Source: Akkermansiaceae bacterium (GTDB lineage: Bacteria; Verrucomicrobiota; Verrucomicrobiia; Verrucomicrobiales; Akkermansiaceae). From it: DNA of 64,000 nt. Made by a program: the position numbers and the translations under genes. The DNA lies in contig JALZUC010000019.1 in NCBI GenBank assembly GCA_023301765.1, positions 1 to 64,000 of the forward strand, read 5' to 3'. Under the pieces are notes generated by a model. That model was not told the DNA's origin. It worked only from the letters and a program-made list of their open reading frames with translations, and ran no database searches. The stretch's first letter is position 1. Each line of letters opens with the position of its first letter. This document shows, piece by piece, positions 61,250 through 62,875 of the stretch.

Positions 61250-62875
61250 TTAGCGGCGTTTTTTTCGTAAAAACGGTGGGATATCTAGATCTTCACCTTC
61301 GTGAAAATTAGGGCTGCCCCCTTCGAATTTACCTCTTGGCCCACCATCTAGCTCCAGCTCAGACTGTGCAGGGGTGACGGGTACGGCACTAGTTGGAGGG
61401 CATTCCTTCACCTCTTCATCTTCACTACCAGCACTGTCGGCTATATCATTTTCAAAAGAGTCTGACACTTCAGACAAGTTTTCACGGCCTAACTCAGGCT
61501 CCGCTACTGGCTCAGTTAACCATGAAGCGTCACCTTCAGGCTGGTCCTCATCCTCATCTTCTGAATTATCTATAAAATCTACTTTTTGAACGGAATCAGG
61601 CTCTGAGGCCACCGCTGCAAATGGACCATCAATTGTAGGCTCATCCACTGGATCTTTTTGGGCAGTTATAAAGGACTCATCATCTACCTTCGTATTTTCT
61701 GATTCTAGATTTGTTTCACCAGCTTCGTCTTCAGATATTTCCAGCTCAAGATCATCTTCTACCACTAAGGCCGTAGCGGCTGCTGCAGCAGTGAGATCAG
61801 CTGCAGCAGTAATAGCAGCCTTATCCTTATCCTTACCTTTATCTAGCTCTGACTCTGAGTTCTTCTCTGTAGGTCCTGAGCTTTCCGGCCTTGTAGGGTT
61901 TAGTATACCCTCAGGTAAAGCACTTACTATGGTTACACTTATGCTATCACCCATCACTGGATCTACCGCCGCTCCAAAGAGCACATGTGCACTAGCTGGC
62001 ACATACTTAGAAAGCCCACTCATCAACAGCTCTACTTCATGAAGTGTTAGACTCTCACCCCCACAAATATGAACAAGAATAGTAGTAGCGTCTTCTAACA
62101 GGCTTCCCTTATCAAGAAGTGGACTATTGAGAGCGTTTTCCAGTGCACTTTGTGAACGATTTTCCCCCTTTGCAATACCTGAACCAAAGAGACAGCGTGA
62201 ACGAGTAGTCTTCAACGCTGACATAAGATCATCTAATCCCACGTTAATAAGACCTGGCTTTACAACAAGGCGAGTCACCGCCTTGATAGACTCTGAAACT
62301 ATACGGTCAGCCGCTACAAAAGCTTCATGGATACCCTGCTTGGCAAGCACGAGCTCCCCCATGCGCCCGTTATCAAAGGTCACCAGAGCATTCGATAACA
62401 CGGCTATCTCATTCAGTGCTTTTTCTGCCTGCTCACGCCGGCGAGTACCTTCAAAGCTAAATGGCATAGTGGCAAACACCACGACAAAGGCACCCTCCTC
62501 ACGCGCTAATCGACAGAGCAGCGGTGCAGCCCCAGAGCCGGTACCTCCGCCAAGACCTACACAGAGAAAAATCATTTTACGCTCACGCATTGCATCACGC
62601 AGTTCTAGCTCAGACTCTTGCGCTGCCCTTAAGCCAAGATCAGGGTCACCACCCGCACCTAAGCCCTTGGTGAGGTTCCGTCCAATCTGGATCTTTTCAC
62701 CGACTACAGAGCTGGAGAGCGTTCGCATATCTGTATTTACACACATCATCTCAGCATCAACCATGCCGTCCAGTGCAGTTCGGGCTAACATATTTGCACC
62801 TGCACCACCTAATCCTATGATTTTAACTGAAGATTCTGGAATAGCTTGCTGGGGGTCTCTTTCGTAGGAAATCAT
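61250..62875 (-). CDS. ftsZ: Cell-division GTPase FtsZ with long acidic linker and altered T7 loop
   Basis: The 541-residue tubulin homolog assembles the division ring. GTP-binding motifs are intact: GLGGAGANML (20-29), GLGAGGDPDLG, and the tubulin signature GGGTGSGAAP (109-118), plus FDNGRMGEL. The catalytic T7 loop reads LINVGLDDLM (209-218) where the family has NVDFADV, so the first Asp is Gly213 while the second (Asp216) is kept. A linker of about 190 residues, rich in Glu and Asp (about 340-525), leads to a conserved C-terminal peptide DIPPFLRKKRR that normally binds FtsA/ZipA-like partners. Division-cluster neighbours (ftsA, ftsQ) are outside the window. Confidence 0.95.
   Translation of the reverse strand: MISYERDPQQAIPESSVKIIGLGGAGANMLARTALDGMVDAEMMCVNTDMRTLSSSVVGEKIQIGRNLTKGLGAGGDPDLGLRAAQESELELRDAMRERKMIFLCVGLGGGTGSGAAPLLCRLAREEGAFVVVFATMPFSFEGTRRREQAEKALNEIAVLSNALVTFDNGRMGELVLAKQGIHEAFVAADRIVSESIKAVTRLVVKPGLINVGLDDLMSALKTTRSRCLFGSGIAKGENRSQSALENALNSPLLDKGSLLEDATTILVHICGGESLTLHEVELLMSGLSKYVPASAHVLFGAAVDPVMGDSISVTIVSALPEGILNPTRPESSGPTEKNSESELDKGKDKDKAAITAAADLTAAAAATALVVEDDLELEISEDEAGETNLESENTKVDDESFITAQKDPVDEPTIDGPFAAVASEPDSVQKVDFIDNSEDEDEDQPEGDASWLTEPVAEPELGRENLSEVSDSFENDIADSAGSEDEEVKECPPTSAVPVTPAQSELELDGGPRGKFEGGSPNFHEGEDLDIPPFLRKKRR

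Follow-up and report, generated by a model that had tools for sequence, protein, structure and literature searches.

The window that we analysed, a 64,000-nucleotide stretch of an Akkermansiaceae contig (JALZUC010000019.1), contains on its minus strand (61250-62875) an intact open reading frame of 541 amino acids that encodes FtsZ. Both the Tubulin/FtsZ GTPase domain (PF00091, 120 bits) and the FtsZ_C domain (PF12327, 73.6 bits) score above the Pfam gathering scores. The host genome is 2.46 Mb and 97.8% complete; a genome-wide search detected this one FtsZ/tubulin gene, and a second, canonical FtsZ was sought elsewhere in the genome and not found. The partner FtsA is full-length in the same genome (329.8 bits, over the cut-off). 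The two genes lie apart: a murCB fusion, ddl, ftsQ and ftsA are clustered on another contig (G000:C16, L242), and a Beta-CASP nuclease comes after ftsA in the expected place of ftsZ. The ftsZ loci of genera g1, g9, g10 and g12 also lack a nearby ftsA (flanks of ~1.5 kb), and the ftsA-ftsZ pair is retained in genera g6, g7, g8 and g11 and in other families. The features of BtubA/B tubulins (T4 GGGSGSGLG, T7 NTDL) are absent from the host genome; BtubA/B-like fragments with T4 GGGSGSGLG or GGGTGSGLG and T7 NTDLNE or NTDLSE occur in families f4 and f2 (L240 in G306, L241 in G243 and perhaps L238 in G284). The features of the gene are as follows.

61250..62875, minus: ftsZ, 541 amino acids, single FtsZ/tubulin gene detected in the genome
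62723..62725, minus: Arg51 (E. coli Gln47, S. aureus Gln48), lying opposite the neighbouring subunit's T7 loop (alignment; role from PMC8936486)
62645..62647, minus: Asp77 in T3 (E. coli Asn73; alignment)
62531..62551, minus: T4 tubulin signature GGGTGSG, residues 109-115, matching GGGTG[STA]G
62438..62440, minus: Arg146 (E. coli Arg142, S. aureus Arg143), the catalytic arginine, kept (alignment)
62228..62245, minus: T7 (synergy) loop NVGLDD, residues 211-216, AACGTGGGATTAGATGAT
62237..62239, minus: Gly213 (GGA), aligned with E. coli Asp209 and S. aureus Asp210
62231..62233, minus: Asp215 (E. coli Ala211), the 'extra' acid
62228..62230, minus: Asp216, aligned with E. coli Asp212 (S. aureus Asp213), the single retained T7 acid
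61253..61288, minus: C-terminal FtsA-binding peptide LDIPPFLRKKRR

The sequence-only reading of this locus had proposed that Gly occupies the place of the first catalytic Asp of the T7 loop and that the second Asp is kept, and both parts are confirmed. In phmmer alignments with the FtsZ chains of Aquifex, S. aureus and Klebsiella in the PDB, whose loops read NVDFAD or NLDFAD, the loop aligns without a gap (in E. coli numbering, Gly213 with Asp209, Leu214 with Phe210, Asp215 with Ala211 and Asp216 with Asp212), and two aligners gave the identical register in 154 of 154 homologues, which rules out a shifted register that would restore the Asp. Of the published FtsZ T7 hydrolysis motif, NxDxx[D/E] (PMC12583498), NVGLDD has the Asn and the last Asp, with Gly for the first Asp, and we therefore class the protein as a variant rather than an ordinary FtsZ. 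A sequencing error, a misalignment or a non-division paralogue might be suspected from the score of 268.7 bits against the NCBIfam equivalog TIGR00065, which is under its cut-off of 295.2. However, 131 of the 145 genomes in our phylum sample likewise have no match above this cut-off, implying that it is poorly set for the phylum, and the loop is ungapped, in one register by two aligners, common to hundreds of genomes and encoded by a single-copy gene. Sequencing or assembly error is ruled out by the Gly in all 14 genomes of the host genus and in nearly the whole order, and the probability of any such artefact is negligible.

The claim that all other GTP motifs are intact was borne out in part: T4, Glu138, Arg142, Asn165 and Asp45 are kept, but the protein also departs from E. 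coli FtsZ by Q47R, N73D, P164D and D166G. With the canonical FtsZs of E. coli and S. aureus it shares the fold, the tubulin signature, the Mg and catalytic-arginine residues, the second T7 Asp, the FtsA-binding C-terminal peptide and the partner FtsA; it differs from them in the Gly at the first T7 Asp, the Arg at Gln47, a T6 motif of FDNG instead of IPND, one additional residue after T7 and a long acidic linker. An AlphaFold2 model built with 48 sequences (pLDDT 87.6, pTM 0.87) has the FtsZ fold according to Foldseek (TM 0.82-0.86 to most top PDB FtsZ matches) and places H7 at residues 182-205, the loop at 206-213 and H8 at 214-220, with Gly213 just before H8, at its start; the local confidence near the T7 loop is ~71-77, and the model is a monomer in which the subunit interface is not represented.

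To read the T7 loop across relatives, FtsZs were taken from related genomes and from genomes sampled evenly over the phylum, and were aligned. Gly stands at 209 (E. coli numbering, as for all positions below unless stated) in 43 of the 45 genomes of the order Verrucomicrobiales, and all 43 have an acid at 212 (Asp in 35, Glu in 8); G016 and G033 are the exceptions, with Glu209 and Gln212. At the level of DNA, a degenerate pattern for the Gly-form loop hit 246 of the 289 genomes of the order; its counterpart encoding an acid at 209 hit G033 alone, and a reversed-pattern control had no hits. Among the genomes that the pattern missed, those that we opened had mostly Gly with small context changes; the others were G306, with Ser, and genus g20. 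Across 60 order sequences the Gly is written with every one of its four codons (GGC 22, GGG 16, GGA 12, GGT 10), and it is thus held at the protein level, under purifying selection. The Gly209 form is a clade-wide variant of a known protein. Two genera of the survey deserve separate mention. Genome G190 of genus g20 has two divergent FtsZ genes, both without an acid at 209 and 212 (G..Q and G..A) and with a T4 of GGGTASG (genus g20 loci L224, L227 and L239); G033 belongs to the same genus. In genus g5 (family f1), G017 and G385 (~90% complete, 1.5-1.6 Mb) gave no FtsZ match at E 0.001, and FtsZ may possibly have been lost naturally or be extremely divergent in them.

The same alignment bears on the proposal that the catalytic acid is shifted, with Asp215, one residue ahead of the usual second Asp, standing for Asp209. 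The equivalent position, 211, is Asp in 38 of the 45 order genomes (Ala or Gly in 3 each and Ile in 1), as such a substitute would have it, but four congeneric species of the host (L010, L011, L014, L015) have Gly or Ala there, and Ala is found in Verrucomicrobium spinosum and in a relative within family f4 (L048), all of these with Gly209. This part of the sequence-only reading did not survive: Asp215 is ruled out as a general substitute acid, and we regard the shifted-acid explanation as highly improbable.

V. spinosum provides the closest link to an FtsZ studied in cells. We found its FtsZ in genome G204, in which three of the four primers published for this gene (PMC1845146) have an exact match; its T7 loop reads RMGIAD, with Gly209, Ala211 and Asp212. 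It shares with the host protein the order, Gly209, Arg47, Asp212 and the long linker, and differs from it in Ala211, that is, no extra Asp, and in Arg207 in place of Asn. Because V. spinosum ftsZ is essential in vivo by TraDIS (PMC12283558), its loop argues that a Gly209 FtsZ works in cells and that Asp215 is dispensable. Together with the single gene copy, the intact FtsA-binding tail, the full-length FtsA and the order-wide Gly, this agrees with the earlier expectation that the protein is probably not dead. Slow GTP hydrolysis by the host protein is plausible. A weak enzyme could suffice, since E. coli D212A is cited as having ~7% activity remaining (cited in PMC8142252) and in B. subtilis with D213A beside the wild type partly condensed rings still constrict (PMC8079713). 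In the open literature that we searched we found no GTPase measurement or other biochemistry of any verrucomicrobial FtsZ.

The loss of the first Asp would be expected to be intolerable from the work on S. aureus filaments, in which Asp210 swings and positions the water, Asp213 holds the water and contacts Arg143, and a K+ within the T7 loop has Asn208 as a ligand and is locked in place by the adjacent subunit's Gln48 (PMC8936486). D210N, D213N and N208L each abolish assembly there, and Q48A assembles with a roughly six-fold lower GTPase (PMC8936486). We found only seven alignment sites (47, 163, 168, 171, 177, 209 and 223) at which the order is uniform and distinct from both clade B (defined below) and the reference FtsZs, and Q47R and D209G are two of them. 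By the geometry of the S. aureus filament (PMC8936486), 47 and 209 face each other in one T7/H2 contact. Arg is present at 47 in all 43 Gly-form sequences of the order, and position 207 is relaxed there (Asn 23, Arg 9, Lys 5, His 3, Gln 3); of the 23 clade B sequences, 16 have Gln47 and 21 have Asn207. In G033 and G190, whose loops have changed again, position 47 is Gly or Ala. The sister family f10 combines Gly209 with Gln47, implying that Gly209 probably preceded Arg47 and that Arg47 is not strictly required. As a hypothesis, Arg47 might replace the brace of Gln and K+ and assist the remaining acid.

We then compared the order with the rest of its class on an FtsZ tree computed without the T7 loop columns, on which the class falls into two supported groups. 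Clade A comprises the order and families f10, f11, f12 and f15 (50 sequences), and clade B comprises families f7, f9, f13, f14, f16 and f17 of the same class (23 sequences). In clade A, position 209 is Gly in 44, Glu in 2, Thr in 2, Ala in 1 and Ser in 1, and position 212 is Asp in 40, Glu in 8 and Gln in 2; in clade B, 209 is Asp in all 23, and 212 is Thr in 13, Ala in 5, Ser in 4 and Gly in 1. By these alignments the second T7 acid is kept by clade A and the first by clade B. The clade B protein is like the host FtsZ in its one-acid loop and otherwise its mirror image, with Asp209 kept, Asp212 changed to Thr, Ala, Ser or Gly, Gln47 mostly kept and Asn207 almost always kept. Either T7 acid alone therefore seems, from these sequences, able to support division. 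In a first survey each of the 73 genomes of the class whose loop could be read had exactly one T7 acid; taken as a strict rule this fails, because it is broken by both G190 copies and by FtsZs of family f8 that have no T7 loop. Reciprocal loss did not reach significance in a sign test on the tree (median p 0.63, with 7 supported independent pairs); the test lacks power since the class pattern stems from few events, and we therefore state the reciprocity as a pattern and not as a proven constraint. The sequence-only reading had missed the order-wide extent of the Gly, the loss of the other acid in sister families and the co-fixed change of Gln47 to Arg.

Outside the phylum, our controls were 33 distinct FtsZs from IMG/VR contigs, the reference PDB sequences and the literature, and all 33 IMG/VR proteins have both Asp209 and Asp212, which agrees with the published NxDxx[D/E] motif (PMC12583498). 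We recovered 50 FtsZ genes (L171-L220) from IMG/VR 'viral' contigs, mostly of one family with PGQINIDFADIKRV, and these are either cellular contamination or virus-borne FtsZ. The same controls weigh on the idea that Asp77 in T3 (position 73), beside the gamma-phosphate, replaces the lost T7 acid. Position 73 is acidic in 43 of 43 order sequences and in 23 of 23 of clade B, a striking pattern inside the order, yet Asp73 is also present in 18 of the 22 both-acid FtsZs from other classes of the phylum and in 26 of the 33 IMG/VR FtsZs, which have both T7 acids. Being equally common in both-acid FtsZs, Asp73 is not specific to acid loss, although it may still be permissive; as a compensating acid we rejected it, and T3 compensation has only a slim probability.

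A further possibility is that hydrolysis is slow or dispensable in these bacteria, so that FtsZ acts as a scaffold for FtsA and septal synthesis with near-zero hydrolysis, other factors drive its turnover and the T7 loop decays as the dependence on treadmilling weakens. The loop is indeed loosened across the phylum: among 81 phylum genomes outside the class, 22 have both acids, 39 the first only, 15 the second only and 5 neither. Four genomes of family f8 have an FtsZ-like protein without a recognisable T7 loop, three of them showing the C-terminal peptide, FtsZ is missing from two sister phyla, Planctomycetota and Chlamydiota (PMC12283558), and the ftsZ of M. infernorum was reported to be fast-evolving (PMC2474590). 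On the other hand, the remaining acid is almost invariant within each clade of the class, as are Arg142, Asp45, Glu138 and T4 in the order, which is not expected of a decaying hydrolase, and the essentiality in V. spinosum also speaks against it; we consider this explanation unlikely, though less so than those above. The T7-less FtsZ-like proteins (L085-L088 in f8, a family that we take to be possibly Methylacidiphilaceae, and L161 in f34) keep the GTP-binding half and, where the stretch extends to it, the FtsA-binding C-terminal peptide; the f34 protein is only ~300 amino acids long.

We consider it reasonably probable, from the sequence comparisons, that the host protein is a genuine working division FtsZ whose composite GTPase site operates with one T7 acid instead of two. 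That it hydrolyses GTP, at what rate, and what Arg51 does are points that we infer from sequence. For this one-acid site we propose that Asp209 changed to Gly in the ancestor common to the order and family f10 and that Gln47 changed to Arg by the base of the order. Asp216 alone would polarise the attacking water, aided by Arg146 and T3 of the adjacent subunit, and that neighbour's Arg51 would take over the interface bracing done by Gln47, K+ and Asn207 in the two-Asp enzyme. Hydrolysis would probably be slower and less K+-dependent, yet enough for filament turnover. The genus g20 copies with neither acid count against the one-acid reading. A related protein is alpha-tubulin, whose T7 loop, NVDLTE, retains an Asp at the first position and in which the acid equivalent to Asp212 is credited with hydrolysis; that acid is Glu, as it is in some members of the order. 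The FtsZ of Nitrosopumilus maritimus resembles the host protein in its unconserved T7 motif, but it has no GTP-binding motif and forms no polymers, and cell division in this organism relies on Cdv (PMC3684127).

The divergence of verrucomicrobial FtsZ was already known (PMC1845146, PMC9871819, PMC12283558). The 2007 paper described V. spinosum FtsZ as 'canonical' and marked eight diverging positions in a figure, with its text silent on the T7 Asp (PMC1845146). In the open-access literature we found no prior statement that the order lacks Asp209 and none on the mirror-image loss in other families. FtsZ is held to need Asp209 and Asp212 together in order to hydrolyse GTP and assemble, and mutations there inactivate FtsZ of E. 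coli and of S. aureus. A large order, with gut and environmental bacteria among its members, in a phylum neighbouring two phyla that dispensed with FtsZ, here has native FtsZs of the essential type without one or the other acid. In a broader and more tentative picture, which we find somewhat doubtful as a whole, the T7 Asps would be individually replaceable and lost reciprocally in two clades, Arg47 in place of Gln and K+ would give a K+-independent one-acid GTPase, and this would be one stage of a stepwise weakening of hydrolysis that leads to T7-less FtsZ and to the FtsZ loss of the sister phyla. These native FtsZs are ready-made material for identifying the acid that activates the water, for testing the need for K+ and for finding out how much hydrolysis division requires.
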